Origin: a bacterium
GTDB taxonomy: Bacteria; Patescibacteria; Paceibacteria; UBA9973
DNA length: 21,047 bases
Assembly: GCA_021813235.1 (NCBI GenBank)
Contig: JAKALG010000004.1
Span: 1-21,047, forward strand
Reading direction: 5' to 3'
The notes beneath the pieces are model-generated. The model made no database searches. It saw only the letters and a list, made by a program, of their open reading frames with translations, and was not told the DNA's origin. This document shows positions 2-21,047 of the stretch, in pieces; the stretch's first letter is position 1, and each line of letters begins with the position of its first letter. Position numbers and translations under genes: made by a program.

Positions 2-3000
2 TTTGTCGCAGTTGGTGATACTGGAGCTGTAATGACCTCTCCTGATGGAATTACTTGGACAGGAAGAACTGCAGCTGAAGCAAATAACTGGGCTGGAGTG
101 ATATACGGAGGTGGAAGTTTTGTAGCAGTCGCTACTACGGGCACGAACAGAGTAATGACATCTCCAGATGGAATCACTTGGACAGCCAGAGTAGCTGCTG
201 AAGTAAATCCTTGGCTTTCTGTTTCTTACGGTAATAATCTCTTCGTAGCGATTGCATATACGGGCACAAACAGAGTAATGACATCTCCAGACGGAATAAC
301 TTGGACAGCCAGAGCAGCTTCCGAGGCGAATACTTGGTATGCTGTTACTTATGGGAACAATCAGTTTGTTGCGGTTTCTCAAGATGGTATTAATAGAGTA
401 ATGACCTCTACTTGGGCTAGTGGTTACACTTATAATTACACAGTAAATGCAGCGAATGGAAGTACATATTTAGATGGTGTAGCGACAGTTAGCCTATCTG
501 TTACGACAGATGTGGCAGGAAATGTATCATCTGCTCCAACCAATAATACATTTACAATTGATACCACGGGTCCTATAGCAGCTATAACATATTCAATCAG
601 TCATCCAGTAAAGACTGGAGACTCTCAAGTCATTACAGCTACATTCAACAAAGTAGTTGCAGATTCACCAGTTATGAAAATTGCAATTTCTGGTTCAAAT
701 ATTTTAGCTGCTACGAATATGACAAAAATAGATACCACTCATTATACATACACTCACACAGTCGGAGCAGGAGATGGGACAGCCACAATTGCTTTAAGTA
801 CAGGAATGGATTTGGTAGGAAATCTCGTTATTCCTGCACCTACAAGTGGAGCAACATTTTCTGTGGATAATACTTTACCTACAGCCACTATTTCTCCAAT
901 CTGTACTATTGGAATCAATGGCTGTACTAGTGCTGGAGCTCTAGCGACTCCGCAAGAATCATATAATGTACAAAGCATAGAAGGAACCGCGAGCGATACA
1001 GCACTCGACAATGTCCAAATTTCTATAAAAGATACGATTACAAATCTATGGTACAACGGCATTTCTTTTACAAGTGCAACTGAAAATTATTTAGCGGCGA
1101 CAGGCATGACGACTTGGATCTTTAATTTGGGAGCTGTGCCTTTGACAATAGGTCATATCTACTTAATTGATGTAAAAGCTACAGATACTGCTCTCAATTC
1201 TACAGTGCAATCTTTATCATTTAAATTTGTAAACTCTCCACCAACAGTTTCAAATGTCACTGTTTCACAAGATTTAACTGGAGTAGTAAATGTTTCTTAT
1301 GATGTCACTGATGTAGAATCCACTCAGACAACAAACTATCTTTTCTACGGAGTAGGAGCAACACTCAATGGAACCATAGATGGTTCTGTCACATCACTTA
1401 CAGTATCTGATGGAACATTTTTCGGAGCTTCCGGAAGTATTTTAATTGATGATGAAATAATTTCATATACAAGTAAAACAGGAAATATATTAAATGGTTT
1501 AACTCGAGGTGCTTTAAATACAACTGCAATATCTCACATTACTGGTGCAACAATATACATTAAAGCAAATACAGTATCAGGCACTGGTATAGGTTTGTCT
1601 AATAAAGGAGTCGGTAAGACAATAGTTTGGACTGCAAAAACAGATGTCGATGGTTATGAGAGTTTGACTGAAATCATAAAGGTAGTAGCCAATGATGGCT
1701 CGACAGGATCGATGATAGGCTCTCTAGCTTCAGTTGCCTTTCCATTAGATGTAAAAACACCCACAGCCACTGTCACTTTCGATGCTGGGGTTGCAGGTGT
1801 CACAGGTAGTGCTACCATCACTATTCCAAAACCTGCTGATCAATCTGCTGTAGAATATAAAATTAGTGATGACCCACTAACTCAAACAAACCCAACCAAC
1901 TCAGGCTGGGTGGCTATGACGCAAGATACCACTATCCCTTGGACTTTTGATTCCGACATTGAAGCTAAAACAATTAAGTATCAATATAGAGATGTGTATG
2001 GAAATATCTCAACTGAAACTGCGACTTCCACTCAAGCACCTATCCCTGCAAGTTCATTCTTGGTTCAAGATTCTTCAAACATAAATATTCCTTCATACGA
2101 TATGTATATTGGTTGGGCACCAGCAAGTCCTACAGGATTCGCTTCTTACAAATTAGAATATGCCACATCAGCAGACAATGTGACTTACGGAAGTTATACG
2201 ACTGTTCCTGGAATGTCTAATCCAACAACGGAATATTATGTTCATAGAAGTTTAGATCCTACTAAATTTTACAAATACAGATTAGGAGTTGTCGGAACAA
2301 ACAACAATGTCTCTATTCGTGCAGGAGCAGCTATTGTGGCTAAACCAGACGGAGTTCAAAACTATGGTGAAGGTGGAGGGGGAAGTATTGCTGTTGCTTC
2401 GAAAGTTGAGAAAGTTGTTCCTACTCAAGGTTCTGATAAAAATGTAACCGTTGGCTATATATTAACTGACACAACTTCAGCTTTAAAGACTGCTCCTTCT
2501 TATGAAGCATATTTGTTTTACAATATAGGAATTACTCTTCCGCTCAATGCATTGACGGGAGATAATCTTACAGTTTCAGATGCTACAAAATTAAAATCTT
2601 CTGGTTTTATTCAAATCAACAATGAAATTATTAAGTACACAGCTAAAACGGGAAATGTTTTAAGTGGACTCACTAGAGGCACTTGGCCTACGGATGCAAC
2701 GACTCGCACAACCAGACAGAATACAACATTTCTTGCTGGTACTCCTGTCTGGATAATGGCTTCCAGTACTACGCCAGTGGCTATCACCAATACAACGATA
2801 ACAACTGGACAAACTGGTTCTATAGTTTGGACTACTTCAAGTGAAACAGCTTTGGCTGGAGATACTTATAGTATCGTCGGGATAAGGGTTTTGATTCATG
2901 ACAATCAAGCTTCCACTTCAGCTCCTCTTTCTAGTCAAAATGATTTTACCGAAGATGGAACTTTAGCACTTTTGGATTTGAGTAATCCAGCCACTTCTTC

Positions 3001-5284
3001 TAGCGCTATAAAATCTACCAGTGCTTTGATCACCTGGAACACAGTTGATTATGCAGATAGTCTGATTGAATACGGGATAATAGCACCAGGAACCGCAGGA
3101 GCATATAATTTATCTAAGACTAATTCAACAAAAGTTTTAGCACACAGTGTTTATTTAGATGCATTAACTCCTTCGACTACTTATTACTACAAAACAACTT
3201 CAACCAATCTAGACAATCAAGCCACTGTCGCTGAATCTTCTTTCACCACGACTGCTGGACCAGTCACCAGTGGAGTTTCTTCTGGTACTATCACAGATAC
3301 TATGGCCACCATCACTTGGACTACGGATATCAATGCCACTTCTTATGTAAATTACTCTACAGATTCTGCTTTAACTTCTCCAGCTCCGACAAGATTTGGT
3401 TCTGCTGATTTGACTACGACTCATTCTATAACTTTAACTGGTTTGAAAAATAGTATGACCTATTATTATTCTGTTGATGGAGCAGACGTGAGTGGAAATA
3501 TAGGAGAGAATACTAATAGTAGAAGTTATTATAGCTTCACAACTCTAGCTGATCAAACGCCTCCCGTGATTTCTAATATTTCAACTCCGATAATCACCCC
3601 TACTCAGGCAGCAATAATTTGGACAACCAATGAATTAGCAGATGGAAAAATAAGATACGGCACCATTTCTGGCACTTACACGAATGATACGACATTAGTA
3701 GCCACTCCGATTACTAGCCATTTAGTGACCTTGAGTAATCTAACAGCTACTACTACATATTATTATGTAGTAGTGTCAGCAGATGCAAATAATAATATTG
3801 CCACTTCCAGTGAACAATCATTTACTACTACAGCAGTGGAAACAATTACAGTGAGTGGTGGTGGCGGTGGGGTGATAGGTGTCGCTCAAGCTCTTTATGA
3901 TGCTTTGCTTGCTCAAAACGAAAGTTACAAGGCTAAAATTACAGCTCTTGATACTACTCCACCAGTCATTTCTAATATTCAAGTGTCTGGTATTACTCCT
4001 TTTGGGGCGGTGATTTCTTTTGAGACAGACGAAGATGCATTATCCTTTATTGATTATGGAAAAAGTAAAGGTAGTTATGACTTACTCGCAGCAGATAATG
4101 TTTGGTCAAAGAATCATACGATTAAACTTTTTGGTTTAAATTTGGGTACAGATTATTATTTTAAAATTAGTGCGATGGATAGATCAAATAATATTGGTAC
4201 TTCAGATGAACAAACCTTCACTACAAAATTCCTGGCTGAAAATGTAACTGATATTACAAAGATAGACAATGTGGAACAATATCAGAAAGAGATAGAAGCG
4301 ACCATTGAATCAATTCTTCCTTCACTCGTTCCTCCTTTCATTGATAAGCCGGTGGTTTCAGATATTACAGAGAGTAGTGCAACCATAACTTTCCGTACAA
4401 ATGTGAAGTCATATCCAGTCATTGATTACACTACGGATGCAAATTATGTTGCTATTAAAGATAATCCGTATGATGGAGAAATATCAGATACATCAGCAAA
4501 AAATATTTTGCACACTCTTTCGTTGGTTGGATTGAAATCTAATACAAAATATCACTTTATGGTCAAAGCTTTTTCTCTTCCTCAAGTTATTGGTAAATCA
4601 GATGACTTAACTTTCACCACAGCTGCTTCCAAGATCCAAGGATCAATCATTGATGTGAAGAAAGATTCTTTCAATGTGGTCTGGACTACAGATGAACCAT
4701 CTTCTTCTATTATTGAATACAAAAACCAAAAAACAGGAATTATGTTACGTATTGCAGATGATGTAAAAAACACTTCTCATTCAGTCCTTGTTGAAAATCT
4801 TGCTCCCGGAACGCTTTATCAAGTAAATATCTCTGGTGTTAACGGAAAAGGAAATCAATTAGAAGGTAGCGCACCACTTAATGTCAAAACTCTCACCGAC
4901 ATTACTCCTCCTGTCATATCTAATTTGAAAGTAGATAGTTCTCTTGTGGTAGGAAGAACAGATAAAGTTCAAACAATTGTTTCTTGGCAAACAGACGAAG
5001 CCTCCACTTCAACTGTTTACTACGAAGAAGGTTCTGGTTCTGCTGACGCTAAACTTTCCAACAAACAAGAAGATACAGAATTGACAAAGAATCACGTTGT
5101 CATTATTACAGCTATGAAATCAGGGACAGTTTACCGCTTTACCGTAGAGTCTATAGATGACGCCAACAATGTAGCTAGACCACCAATTCGCACCATTATT
5201 ACCCCTAAACAGACTGAATCGATAGTGGATGTTATCTTCAAAAACTTCAACGATACGTTTAACTTTATTAACAATGTGAAGTAG
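2..5284 (+). CDS. Giant surface/secreted protein with SPDGITW repeats, Ig-like modules and seven FN3 domains (5' end missing)
   Basis: The frame is open from base 2 with no start in the window, so the gene is 5'-truncated; the ATG at 32 lies inside a repeat. Counting residues from that ATG: 1-124 are three about 41-residue (123-base) repeats with the core MTSPDGITWT and YGNNxFVAV, resembling beta-propeller blades; 125-575 are Ig-like/Big-type segments; 440-511 and 829-909 are two copies of a module ending in TGNxLxGLTRG; about 984-1723 are seven FN3 domains with WTT(D/N)E, YYY and FTTTA signatures. Glycine-rich linkers occur at 780-784 and 1276-1280. It is probably an extracellular adhesin or envelope protein, as is common in CPR bacteria. 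No LPXTG motif or clear C-terminal membrane anchor is visible; the protein ends FNDTFNFINNVK. Secretion is inferred because the signal peptide lies outside the window. The exact ligand is unknown. Confidence 0.9.
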   Translation, partial: FVAVGDTGAVMTSPDGITWTGRTAAEANNWAGVIYGGGSFVAVATTGTNRVMTSPDGITWTARVAAEVNPWLSVSYGNNLFVAIAYTGTNRVMTSPDGITWTARAASEANTWYAVTYGNNQFVAVSQDGINRVMTSTWASGYTYNYTVNAANGSTYLDGVATVSLSVTTDVAGNVSSAPTNNTFTIDTTGPIAAITYSISHPVKTGDSQVITATFNKVVADSPVMKIAISGSNILAATNMTKIDTTHYTYTHTVGAGDGTATIALSTGMDLVGNLVIPAPTSGATFSVDNTLPTATISPICTIGINGCTSAGALATPQESYNVQSIEGTASDTALDNVQISIKDTITNLWYNGISFTSATENYLAATGMTTWIFNLGAVPLTIGHIYLIDVKATDTALNSTVQSLSFKFVNSPPTVSNVTVSQDLTGVVNVSYDVTDVESTQTTNYLFYGVGATLNGTIDGSVTSLTVSDGTFFGASGSILIDDEIISYTSKTGNILNGLTRGALNTTAISHITGATIYIKANTVSGTGIGLSNKGVGKTIVWTAKTDVDGYESLTEIIKVVANDGSTGSMIGSLASVAFPLDVKTPTATVTFDAGVAGVTGSATITIPKPADQSAVEYKISDDPLTQTNPTNSGWVAMTQDTTIPWTFDSDIEAKTIKYQYRDVYGNISTETATSTQAPIPASSFLVQDSSNINIPSYDMYIGWAPASPTGFASYKLEYATSADNVTYGSYTTVPGMSNPTTEYYVHRSLDPTKFYKYRLGVVGTNNNVSIRAGAAIVAKPDGVQNYGEGGGGSIAVASKVEKVVPTQGSDKNVTVGYILTDTTSALKTAPSYEAYLFYNIGITLPLNALTGDNLTVSDATKLKSSGFIQINNEIIKYTAKTGNVLSGLTRGTWPTDATTRTTRQNTTFLAGTPVWIMASSTTPVAITNTTITTGQTGSIVWTTSSETALAGDTYSIVGIRVLIHDNQASTSAPLSSQNDFTEDGTLALLDLSNPATSSSAIKSTSALITWNTVDYADSLIEYGIIAPGTAGAYNLSKTNSTKVLAHSVYLDALTPSTTYYYKTTSTNLDNQATVAESSFTTTAGPVTSGVSSGTITDTMATITWTTDINATSYVNYSTDSALTSPAPTRFGSADLTTTHSITLTGLKNSMTYYYSVDGADVSGNIGENTNSRSYYSFTTLADQTPPVISNISTPIITPTQAAIIWTTNELADGKIRYGTISGTYTNDTTLVATPITSHLVTLSNLTATTTYYYVVVSADANNNIATSSEQSFTTTAVETITVSGGGGGVIGVAQALYDALLAQNESYKAKITALDTTPPVISNIQVSGITPFGAVISFETDEDALSFIDYGKSKGSYDLLAADNVWSKNHTIKLFGLNLGTDYYFKISAMDRSNNIGTSDEQTFTTKFLAENVTDITKIDNVEQYQKEIEATIESILPSLVPPFIDKPVVSDITESSATITFRTNVKSYPVIDYTTDANYVAIKDNPYDGEISDTSAKNILHTLSLVGLKSNTKYHFMVKAFSLPQVIGKSDDLTFTTAASKIQGSIIDVKKDSFNVVWTTDEPSSSIIEYKNQKTGIMLRIADDVKNTSHSVLVENLAPGTLYQVNISGVNGKGNQLEGSAPLNVKTLTDITPPVISNLKVDSSLVVGRTDKVQTIVSWQTDEASTSTVYYEEGSGSADAKLSNKQEDTELTKNHVVIITAMKSGTVYRFTVESIDDANNVARPPIRTIITPKQTESIVDVIFKNFNDTFNFINNVK

Positions 5285-19089: not shown

Positions 19090-19166
19090 TTTTCATTCCT
19101 TATTGTATATTAATGTGCAATTAATTTTTTTTATACATTAACAACAAAATAGAAAAAAAACAAGGG

Positions 19167-19237
19167 TGCGGGATGGGGTAATCGAAACCCCGTCTAATCC
19201 TTGGGAAGGACTCATTCTGCCACTAAACTAATCCCGC
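19167..19237 (-). tRNA. tRNA-Gly (anticodon CCC)
   Basis: A complete cloverleaf on the minus strand: acceptor GCGGGAT pairs with ATCCCGC, discriminator A; D-arm region GTTTAGTGGCAGAAT; anticodon stem AGTCC/GGATT around loop TTCCCAA (anticodon CCC, reading GGG); T-arm GGGGT-TTCGATT-ACCCC. CCA is not encoded (the 3' flank is CCC), so it must be added by an enzyme. In a low-GC genome GGG codons are rare, so another glycine tRNA (TCC and/or GCC) should be elsewhere. Confidence 0.95.
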
Positions 19238-19247
19238 ATGTATATAA

Positions 19248-19276: not shown

Positions 19277-19290
19277 GTAAGAAATCAAGT

Positions 19291-19331
19291 AGAAAAAGAA
19301 ACTGCCGGAGAAACAGCAGTTTCTTCGGCAG
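19291..19331 (-). terminator. Intrinsic terminator of the T9SS-cargo gene
   Basis: On the minus strand, CTGCCG-A-AGAAAC, loop TGCT, GTTTCT-C-CGGCAG: 12 paired positions with one A/C mismatch, followed by TTTCTTTTTCT. It lies 8 bases past the TAA and separates this gene from the tRNA. Confidence 0.85.
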
Positions 19332-19339
19332 TGAATTAT

Positions 19340-20611
19340 TTACTTCATCAAAATCATTTTCTTGACCTGCGCGAGATTGCCACAGGTAATTTTGTACATA
19401 TACGTTCCACTCGCCAATTTGCTAGCGTCAAATTCAACGCTGTAATTGCCGGCGGCTTTCTGTTCATTCACAAGAGTTTTAACTTCTCTTCCAGCAATGT
19501 CATAAATTTTTAATGTAACATTTCCAGCTGTTGGAAGTTGATAGCTAATAGTTGTTGAAGGATTGAACGGATTCGGATAATTCTGGTTCAACTTAAATTG
19601 TGTCGGAATTTCGCTATTTTCTTCAACTCCTGTAACCATAGGAGAAATAATTATTGGGCGGTTATTATTAAGTGTTCCTGATATTTCTATTGGATTATCA
19701 GTTATAATAATTGGGTTTTCAACAACAGCCTTTTGTCCAGCGAAGTAAAATTTGTCGTTTATCCTTTTAGACATAAAATTACTTCCAGAAGGCAGAGAAA
19801 CATTTTCTTTTGCTACTAAATTTCCGTTTGTAATTGGTTCTTTTGAAAAAAGTCCCCATTTCCCATCCATCATTTTTCGCCAATTTACAGTTACTGGAGT
19901 TGTTGGTGCAACTGCTCCAGATCCGCCACTACTGTTATTGTAGAGTATGGGCCAGTAATTGGTGTTTCGAAGATCTACGATAGCACTTAACAATAAAGTT
20001 TCATCCCAAGTATCAATATAACCGTCGCCACTTAGGTCTAGTTTTACTTTTGTTGTGTCATTTTGTGGTATTGTGCCAATCATTGCCCACATTTCAATGG
20101 CATCAGCTATGTTTAATCTTTCGTCATTATTAATATCGCCATAACTACTCATGGGTATATTAATAATTTTTAATGCTCCGGTTGTTGCTCCCCAATGTTC
20201 TTCTCCATCAAATAAATTTACATAAGGGTACCAAAAAACTCCGCTTAAATTATTTCCAACATGAAAACTTATTGTGCCAAGCTCTTCGCCGTTAGTAACA
20301 AATAATGGATTCCCGACCGCTGCGATTTTTAATTGTCCATTATTGAAACCGGATAGATAGTCCCAACTGTAGTTATAAAGCAATGACCCTAAATTGAAAT
20401 AATTAGGATAAAATTCTGAGCTGTAATTTATGTACAACTCAAATCCTTTTAGATAAGCAGTATTACCAAGTACTTGTACCGGAGTTGTAATATTTGTTCC
20501 CGCGCCGACCGTTCTACCAGGTAAGAATATGTTGTGTACAGTTACTTGAGCATTAATACTCAGTGATGAGAGAAATACAACAGCGAATAAAAGTACAAAC
20601 AGCTTTTTCAT
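19340..20611 (-). CDS. Secreted protein: signal peptide, cohesin-like and dockerin-like domains, T9SS type-A sorting domain
   Basis: 423 residues. A Sec signal peptide (MKKLFVLLFAVVFLSSLSINA, likely cut before Gln22). Residues about 23-152 look like a cohesin-type beta sandwich (LKGFELYINYSSEF, GTISFHVG). Residues 157-213 look like a type-I dockerin with two calcium loops (DINNDERLNIAD and DLSGDGYIDTWD). About 215-337 is a linker with NPI-type repeats. Residues 338-423 are a canonical Por/T9SS C-terminal sorting domain: FKLNQNYPNPFNPSTTISYQLP, VTLKIYDIAGREVKTLV, GNYSVEFDASKLASGTYMYKI, ending KKMILMK. Known T9SS cargo is exported across an outer membrane by Bacteroidota/Ignavibacteria-type bacteria. 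AGGAGA lies 6 bases before the ATG, the strongest Shine-Dalgarno of any gene here. It has its own promoter and terminator. It may be horizontally acquired, or the contig lineage needs rechecking. Confidence 0.88.
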   Translation of the reverse strand: MKKLFVLLFAVVFLSSLSINAQVTVHNIFLPGRTVGAGTNITTPVQVLGNTAYLKGFELYINYSSEFYPNYFNLGSLLYNYSWDYLSGFNNGQLKIAAVGNPLFVTNGEELGTISFHVGNNLSGVFWYPYVNLFDGEEHWGATTGALKIINIPMSSYGDINNDERLNIADAIEMWAMIGTIPQNDTTKVKLDLSGDGYIDTWDETLLLSAIVDLRNTNYWPILYNNSSGGSGAVAPTTPVTVNWRKMMDGKWGLFSKEPITNGNLVAKENVSLPSGSNFMSKRINDKFYFAGQKAVVENPIIITDNPIEISGTLNNNRPIIISPMVTGVEENSEIPTQFKLNQNYPNPFNPSTTISYQLPTAGNVTLKIYDIAGREVKTLVNEQKAAGNYSVEFDASKLASGTYMYKITCGNLAQVKKMILMK

Positions 20612-20667
20612 TTTGAATCTCCTCTTGATTTTAAATGATTTTGTTTTTGTTATTTAGGGGATTTTCC

Positions 20668-20710
20668 CACTAATTTAAGGGCGAAAAGGGGATTTGTCCA
20701 CAAATTAGTG
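20668..20710. repeat. Inverted repeat in the leader of the T9SS-cargo gene
   Basis: CACTAATTT (20668-20676) and AAATTAGTG (20702-20710) pair perfectly, 25 bases apart, inside the 20612-20745 leader. The loop is G-rich (AAGGGCGAAAAGGGGATT). It could be an operator or an RNA stem; no known class is recognised. Confidence 0.4.
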
Positions 20711-20751
20711 AGAATATACCCAATTACTGTCAATGTACGAAATATTCGCAT

Positions 20752-20779
20752 ACAATAGCATTTTTATAATAAATGTCAA
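20752..20779 (-). promoter_or_regulatory. Promoter of the T9SS-cargo gene
   Basis: On the minus strand, a consensus -35 TTGACA (20774-20779), a 16-base spacer ending TGC (extended -10), and TATTGT (20752-20757). The predicted start near 20745 leaves a leader of about 130 bases. Confidence 0.6.
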
Positions 20780-20799
20780 GGATTTAAGCTTGACGCGTA

Positions 20800-20808
20800 T
20801 GCTATAAT
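20800..20808 (+). promoter_or_regulatory. Extended -10 promoter of the glutaredoxin gene
   Basis: TGC (20800-20802) plus TATAAT (20803-20808). The predicted start near 20815 lies just before the left arm of a long leader hairpin. A TTGAC at 20790 is too close to act as its -35. Confidence 0.55.
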
Positions 20809-20820
20809 AAAAGTAATTAA

Positions 20821-20921
20821 TCCCGTACGAAGTTTATTTATTAGGTTTGTATAGGGAGGTGATTTATTATAATTTAATTTTAAAGTAAGAGTGAACAAAT
20901 AAGCTTTTACTTCGTTCGGGA
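20821..20921 (+). promoter_or_regulatory. Long base-paired leader ending at the glutaredoxin start codon
   Basis: TCCCGTACGAAGT (20821-20833) pairs with ACTTCGTTCGGGA (20909-20921) at 12 of 13 positions. The stem continues with TTATTTATT (20834-20842) against AACAAATAA (20894-20902) after a 6-base bulge. The right arm's last base is the A of the ATG. The loop holds GGGAGGTGAT (20854-20863), an almost perfect anti-16S match with no start codon nearby. Confidence 0.55.
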
Positions 20922-21047
20922 TGAAAAACGTAACAATTTATTCGACCCCCACTTGTCACTTTTGTCACATGGCAAAAGATTTTTTTAAAGCTAATAATGT
21001 AGCTTATACAGAATACGATGTCATGAGTAATTTAGAAAAAAGAAAAG
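20921..21047 (+). CDS. Glutaredoxin family thiol-disulfide protein (3' end missing)
   Basis: The first 42 residues are visible: MKNVTIYSTPTCHFCHMAKD, then FFKANNVAYTEYDVMSN. This is the glutaredoxin/NrdH-type thioredoxin fold start: beta strand, CxxC active site Cys12-His-Phe-Cys15, helix, then YTEYDV. It reduces disulfides or mixed disulfides in the cytosol, using reduced thioredoxin reductase or small thiols depending on subtype. The ATG is preceded by TTCGTTCGGG with no Shine-Dalgarno at normal distance; the leader folds onto it. The gene runs off the window end, so length and subtype cannot be judged. Confidence 0.88.
   Translation, partial: MKNVTIYSTPTCHFCHMAKDFFKANNVAYTEYDVMSNLEKRK

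Follow-up and report, generated by a model that had tools for sequence, protein, structure and literature searches.

T9SS-type sorting tails on cargo genes in shared slots of Candidatus Nomurabacteria genomes

The cargo cassette and its slot

The window, by which we mean the whole stretch of 21,047 nucleotides that was analyzed, carries a cassette with a cargo gene between a tRNA gene and a glutaredoxin gene. The features are the following.

19164..19238, minus strand: tRNA-Gly(CCC), left border of the slot
19280..20920, no strand: cassette interval; in seven cargo-less relatives, glutaredoxin directly follows tRNA-Gly
19295..19326, minus strand: terminator-like hairpin with T tract
19340..20611, minus strand: cargo gene encoding 423 aa, with a Sec signal peptide, a cohesin, a dockerin, a beta domain, and a T9SS sorting tail of type A
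19340..19594, minus strand: T9SS type-A C-terminal sorting domain, residues 340-423 (PF18962, TIGR04183), more conserved than the passenger
19646..19894, minus strand: beta-rich module, residues about 240-322, with the WKK..NGKWGLFS.E.ITNGDL block of the cargo family
19964..20152, minus strand: dockerin type I, residues about 154-216 (PF00404, E 9.3e-5)
20156..20545, minus strand: cohesin-fold module, residues about 23-152
20546..20611, minus strand: signal peptide MKKLFVLLFAVVFLSSLSINAQ, read by eye, with a predicted cleavage site
20619..20625, minus strand: Shine-Dalgarno AGAGGAG, -14 to -8 of the cargo start
20663..20716, minus strand: conserved leader hairpin or inverted repeat, 54 bases, 5' UTR
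20752..20779, minus strand: sigma70-type promoter TTGACA-N16-TATTGT with TG before the -10, from a pattern scan and by eye in relatives
20921..21047, plus strand: start of the glutaredoxin gene, right border of the slot, running off the contig (the L074 relative is PF00462)

The sequence-only reading of this DNA had proposed a signal peptide and a canonical T9SS sorting domain in one ORF, and both were recovered. The N-terminal Sec signal peptide was recognized by sequence reading, by a hydropathy rule, and as a helix of residues 2-19 in the structure model. PF18962 matched residues 345-420 of the tail (E 3.8e-13; 50 bits, cut-off 27), and TIGR04183 also matched it (E 1.5e-13; 50.5 bits, cut-off 23). 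Furthermore, the cargo protein has a cohesin fold and a dockerin that passed the PF00404 cut-off by the narrowest margin (23.0 versus 22.9 bits); solved dockerins gave a profile match to this module only at E 0.009-0.02. Neither a glycoside hydrolase nor a scaffoldin was found among the window genes scanned. Overall, the observations of the sequence-only reading held and were understated, since the cohesin/dockerin modules, the leader hairpin, the family-wide occurrence, and the loss of the anti-Shine-Dalgarno sequence described below go beyond it; its interpretation was supported in part.

Among the best 120 of 5236 matches, at least 12 full-length passenger relatives (42-51% identity) came from metagenome assemblies, and no full-length homologue was seen in named FCB genomes. 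None of 31 pattern-matching stretches in viral contigs encoded a passenger relative. The passenger profile without the tail (A4) matched strongly in 3 of 397 order-sample genomes; this passenger is thus rare, and the breadth of the phenomenon rests on the tail. The cargo tail is up to 73% identical to tails of unrelated proteins (P0014), as close as within its own family.

The promoter, Shine-Dalgarno sequence, and terminator that had been proposed from the letters were all located (see the feature list). The promoter scan alone is weak, with 12 promoter-like sites in the region versus 9.0 expected; by eye, the site recurs in the relatives L001, L012, L009, and L003. In the aligned leaders (set A6), GGAG is present in 8 of 8, despite differing flanks and spacing, and the promoter and leader DNA of the window is about 77% identical to that of L001, L012, and L009. 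The leader hairpin lies 44-59 bases before the cargo start codon in the window, L001, L003, L009 (two), and L012, and a weaker form was seen in L141 and L074. Applied to 71 + 40 loci, the leader model matched at E < 0.01 only upstream of the slot cargo genes, the L141 cargo gene, which lies elsewhere, and one L009 gene. Covariation is thin (two-sided change in 3 of 23 pairs, several pairs broken, covariation term +0.45), the model scores on the reverse strand too, and the element may equally be a DNA inverted repeat. A role as a general regulon was rejected, since the element does not precede other tail genes at E < 0.01. In L009, the hairpin also precedes a 281-aa lipoprotein-like gene. A separate 14-base inverted repeat, ATCCCGTACGAAGT/ACTTCGTTCGGGAT, with one mismatch, is present at window positions 20820-20833 and 20909-20922; it encloses GGGAGGTGATT, immediately before the glutaredoxin start.

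The window is Candidatus Nomurabacteria (CPR) DNA: the core genes on both sides of the cassette are closest to this group, and the gene order is the same. A PEP synthase scan of genome contigs yielded 24 loci, 15 Nomurabacterial or syntenic with Nomurabacteria and 9 from Xenorhabdus. The PEP synthase of the window is 94% identical to that of Ca. Nomurabacteria L001, 79-85% to those of the other 14 loci, and 51-52% to those of Xenorhabdus. LepA reaches 85% identity to Nomurabacteria, and the glutaredoxin start is 74-93% identical over 11 Nomurabacterial loci (88% to L001). Origin of the genome from a T9SS-bearing phylum, which the sequence-only reading had considered, was rejected on the basis of these core genes and of the Omp85 search described below (0/147 in the family).

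A tail-bearing gene was detected between tRNA-Gly(CCC) and glutaredoxin in L001 (G001), L003 (G002), L009 (G003, two copies), L012 (G004), and L074 (G287). The passenger belongs to the window's family in G001, G003, G004, and G287, whereas a variant passenger is present in G002 and in the second of the two copies in G003. The slot is empty in L005, L006, L008, L011, L021, L022, and L024, with about 140 bases between the landmarks in L021; L002, L004, L007, and L010 were uninformative. An assembly chimera had also been suggested. For this slot the relatives refute it, since tail genes occupy the same place in five other MAGs and the right-flank glutaredoxin is Nomurabacterial.

Two further observations were made at these loci. 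The tRNA-Gly(CCC) gene is inverted in the five cargo-bearing relatives (L001 13727, L003 13268, L009 10926, L012 14284, L074 6787), whereas neither the window nor any of the seven empty slots shows this inversion. By its sequence and gene order, L012 belongs to the Nomurabacteria, and the MAG is mislabelled, its record title reading Burkholderiales bacterium.

Tail genes across the family

PF18962 scored above its cut-off in 48 of the 147 genomes of the window's family, about a third, and in 6 of the 15 genomes from the PEP synthase scan. In the order sample, 30 of 397 genomes were positive, at least 7 of them from the window's family, and in the phylum sample 5 of 379, two of them from the family; positives outside the family are raw matches and may include contaminant contigs. 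For the Fisher test (48/147 versus 3/377), all but two phylum-sample genomes were taken as non-family, and the 377 may include family genomes without a tail match.

Forty context stretches with 45 tail genes, picked mostly for long contigs and high scores, were compared. In 39 of them, another family genome contained an ortholog-like match (tblastn E up to 1e-20, 60% covered) to at least one flanking ORF. One slot, rpsF-ssb-[tail gene]-efp-recA, recurs in G013, G514, G425 (with two tail genes), and G415, and in G515 and G523 as far as the contig reaches. Tail genes also lie next to nusA or at most a few genes away from it (G001, G013, G004, G003, G014, G287, G509, G424) and near secA (G514, G515, G516, G464, G458). 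Of the slot gene names, one example each of rpsF, ssb, efp, recA, nusA, tpiA, secA, and glutaredoxin was Pfam-checked, and the others were assigned by eye. RNase P RNA genes adjoin tail genes at L122 9170-9462 and L127 7490-7860, so that here too slots border stable RNA genes.

These shared slots bear on contamination or misassembly as a general explanation, by which Bacteroidota or Ignavibacteria DNA would have been joined to CPR contigs. One order-sample genome (G049, nine matches) indeed looks mixed, and none of the flanking ORFs in L147 finds support in another family genome. Separate assemblies, however, have the same slots and common flanks on contigs of up to 336 kb, and the composition of the window's cargo gene is not outlying (15% of windows of 1272 bases deviate at least as much). 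We find this explanation barely credible.

All 60 collected tail proteins match PF18962, a result that is partly circular because the same model selected them. They fall into 8 passenger clusters and 22 singletons, with Ig, FG-GAP, Kelch, PKD, and GH16 among the passenger modules. Sorting genes by a crude motif and hydropathy rule let through at least one false tail gene (L134_9011). The C-terminal domain could simply be an Ig-like fold that provides stability or display in ordinary CPR surface proteins, with no sorting role. In line with this, the cargo tail also scores above the FlgD_ig cut-off (CHU_C stays below its own), and FN3-type surface proteins are encoded near the cargo gene (window 32-5284). 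We give this explanation little credence, because it does not account for the YPNP/NYPNPFNPST, G, and G.Y features that the 60 proteins have retained, for the basic residue within the last two positions of 46 of them, or for the link between GGAG and tail type described below.

Secretion machinery and start signals

T9SS tails are regarded as marking bacteria that have both an outer membrane and a T9SS, and to our knowledge such export tags are read only in bacteria that have an outer membrane. Omp85, the outer-membrane marker, was found in 0 of 147 family genomes, while 7 of 14 control genomes were positive. That the window's relatives probably lack an outer membrane is thus well supported. 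SprA was above cut-off in 0 of 147 family genomes and in 0 of 6 in a second search, with no control genome above cut-off in either. PorU gave 0 of 10 above cut-off in a search with no T9SS-bearing control, and its three sub-threshold matches were the tails themselves. GldM/PorM was detected in 0 of 9 genomes, the controls being silent too. A lack of these other T9SS parts in the relatives is less well supported than that of the outer membrane. For the putative unrecognized export route considered in the sequence-only reading, these searches of the relatives found no machinery, but the tail looks constrained.

The ribosome of these bacteria was found to differ as well. The full 16S genes of G001 and G432 align with RF00177 from end to end, but their 3' ends read GTGGAATAATTCAATTTGAAA in place of GGATCACCTCC. 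The same end is present in G435, G458, G464, G515, and G516, giving seven genomes in total. In G001, the nearest relative among the genomes compared, the 16S gene without the anti-Shine-Dalgarno sequence (L167 488-2105, minus strand) is located on the contig of its cargo copy. Three of the 147 family genomes contain a canonical end pattern, which in one case belongs to a true SSU end. Family-wide loss rests on the 7 true 16S ends and on the 144 of 147 genomes in which the pattern is absent; by itself this absence is weak evidence, since many MAGs have no 16S gene. The end is replaced by GGAATAATTCAATTTGAAA, identical in L167, L117, L122, L124, L126, L127, and L130, and the sequences diverge beyond it; the altered end could be a new mRNA-contact tail.

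In line with the leaderless expression style that had been proposed for the neighboring core genes, only 23 of 569 genes in 661 kb of G001 (L001) have a Shine-Dalgarno sequence at the first ATG, all three tail genes included, and TANNNT peaks at -12 (93 versus about 20), as in leaderless genes. In the window, an SD-like word is absent at 12 of 15 starts and present for FN3_32, h114, and the cargo gene; the starts of enolase and hyp13172 are uncertain, and that of FN3_32 is near the contig edge. G001 also has response-regulator-like genes, named by eye, with strong Shine-Dalgarno sequences (C15 45993-46475 and 228428-228892; C20 251725-252165). One of them adjoins the cargo slot, and the set is perhaps imported too.

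Counted on simple longest ORFs, with L150 dropped for want of upstream sequence and L075 counted as a long-type tail, GGAG lies upstream of 15 of the 18 genes with long tails and of 1 of the 41 with short tails; among other (neighbor) genes, 10 of 458 have it. Starts are A-rich in the tail genes that do not belong to the long-tail set (A 0.55 versus 0.42 in neighbors). Bacteroidota have A-rich starts without a Shine-Dalgarno sequence. Since the start signal tracks the tail type, each tail type appears to bring its own start context. Two signals, GGAG and the T9SS tail, thus persist in a carrier that cannot read them by known means.

Both signals might instead be meant for a partner. An epibiont would export the protein, and the exposed PorV/PorU attachment complex of the T9SS-bearing partner would take it up and fix it on the partner's surface or, more boldly, the partner itself would express the gene. 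In favor of this, the carrier retains both GGAG and the T9SS tail, two separate signals that match the presumed donors, start-codon contexts differ between long- and short-tail genes, and cohesin/dockerin, Kelch, FG-GAP, and Ig modules suit adhesion. However, the promoter common to five genomes looks by eye sigma70- and CPR-like, so that transcription probably takes place in the carrier, and substrates of the known T9SS approach the attachment complex from inside. We consider such a partner-directed tag rather improbable. An equally doubtful idea is a pool of genes with a "foreign address", whose GGAG and T9SS tail, unreadable in the carrier by known means, would fit Ignavibacteriota or Bacteroidota partners, the adhesins acting on the partner.

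Origin and meaning of the tails

The long tails of the CPR genes do not form one clade but are interspersed among named Ignavibacteria tails. This is the only conclusion drawn from the tail tree, which has 85 columns, with 44 of 71 inner branches open and the bootstrap not settled, leaves out the short tails and most listed homologues, and includes L143 as a long-branch row. Relatives of a second long-tail passenger family carry the names Patescibacteria, Nomurabacteria, and Ignavibacteriales, and one of them lies on a 2.08-Mb Ignavibacteriales contig (P0270; 46% over 73%). For the recA-slot passenger, the relatives are weaker (about 25-33%) and include some with Bacteroidota names. Third-position GC follows the host genome with a slope of 0.47 in tail genes versus 0.94 in other secreted genes, and in the GC-rich G287 the cargo gene has a GC content of 0.38 in surroundings of 0.49. 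The GC3 slope and the intermixed Ignavibacteria tails speak for repeated import.

Recent acquisition, as proposed in the sequence-only reading, is consistent with a third-position GC half-way to the host and with long tails lying among those of Ignavibacteria. On the other hand, slot, promoter, leader, and GGAG are common to diverged relatives, and the acquisition was therefore not a one-off event. Moreover, the kept GGAG and the conserved promoter and leader DNA look like inheritance under selection, not like repeated fresh import.

Within the cargo family (13 pairs among the best 40), tails are 61-68% identical and passengers 33-43%. For the window and L001, the values are 67% for the tail and 43% for the passenger, with a dN of 0.25 versus 0.54; in these pairwise rates, synonymous sites are near saturation. 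The tail is also more constrained than the passenger in L112/L136, L113/L130, and L140/L146, but it changes as fast as the passenger or faster in L113/L122, in the pair formed by the two of L132, and in several distant pairs. In G287, two unrelated passengers (L074 7537-9084 and L075 7787-8614) carry sister tails (90/95, below the starred level), which would fit a common donor, gene conversion, or tails adapted to a single reader.

The constraint on the tail raises the question of a CPR reader, an unrecognized surface-sorting device that would read T9SS-type tails without an outer membrane, so as to anchor, trim, or gate proteins at the cell wall or the S-layer. Such a reader could explain why tails are more conserved than passengers in the pairs named above and why the 60 tails are joined to 8 passenger clusters and 22 singletons. 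Tail genes near secA in five genomes (one SecA was Pfam-checked) are compatible with it, and the sister tails in G287 would be expected if tails adapt to one reader. Against it stand the Omp85, SprA, GldM, and PorU searches, with the silent controls noted for SprA and GldM, the pairs with fast tails, the 99 of 147 family genomes without a tail above cut-off, and the lack of a separate clade of long CPR tails. On balance, we judge a CPR reader unlikely.

We lean toward recurrent import of cargo genes into shared slots, followed by expression and Sec export by the carrier, as the most likely reading. The donors would be T9SS-bearing neighbors or hosts, Ignavibacteriota for the long NYPNPFNPST tails and Bacteroidota for the short YPNP tails. 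Imported genes would settle in a few chromosomal slots and then be inherited or swapped among relatives. Transcription would start at the carrier's own sigma70 promoter, Sec would carry the protein across the single membrane, and the cohesin/dockerin or Ig/propeller modules would act at the cell surface or in the medium. The tail would be read by no T9SS in the carrier cell, and GGAG and the tail would be largely donor signals, maintained by recurrent import. Against recurrent import, carry-over should decay, yet the cargo-family tails are more conserved than their passengers; this selection is the main point against the tail as mere luggage.

Like T9SS type-A cargo of Ignavibacteriota and Bacteroidota (TIGR04183, PF18962), these proteins have a signal peptide, a variable passenger, and a canonical sorting domain. 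Unlike it, they are encoded in CPR bacteria without Omp85 and without detected SprA (controls silent), in shared slots amid CPR core genes. The window's protein also differs from cellulosomal and non-cellulosomal cohesin-dockerin proteins in that a single small protein combines both modules with a T9SS tail. The databases already contain individual members from Ca. Nomurabacteria and Patescibacteria (P0122, P0259), which NCBI names "T9SS type A sorting domain-containing protein", but for the family-wide set, the slots, and the signals we found no description in the literature. Among the matches listed in the open-licence literature, including the available excerpts of PMC12419801 and PMC8542988, nothing on T9SS or sorting domains in CPR, Patescibacteria, or Nomurabacteria was found.

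Other cases of 16S rRNA without an anti-Shine-Dalgarno sequence exist. In mammalian mitochondria, according to the available part of PMC10582724, the 16S rRNA has none. The CPR 3' end resembles this type in its lack of CCUCC and in the few SD genes, but its GGAAUAAUUCAAUUUGAAA end is common to seven CPR family genomes, and imported-looking genes still keep GGAG. A report of anti-Shine-Dalgarno loss in CPR was not found in the open-licence literature, as far as the available excerpts of PMC10582724, PMC9723584, and PMC6851277, among others, extend.

The carrier is a tiny and probably dependent bacterium. In this CPR family without Omp85, one genome in three carries T9SS-type tails; their presence is either a record of cohabiting bacteria or a sign of a tail that works without the known machine. 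If it is a record of partners, it would be a testable clue to the hosts of Nomurabacteria. Furthermore, the loss of the anti-Shine-Dalgarno sequence makes imported genes recognizable by their start signals and opens a test of translation initiation on ribosomes that lack that sequence.
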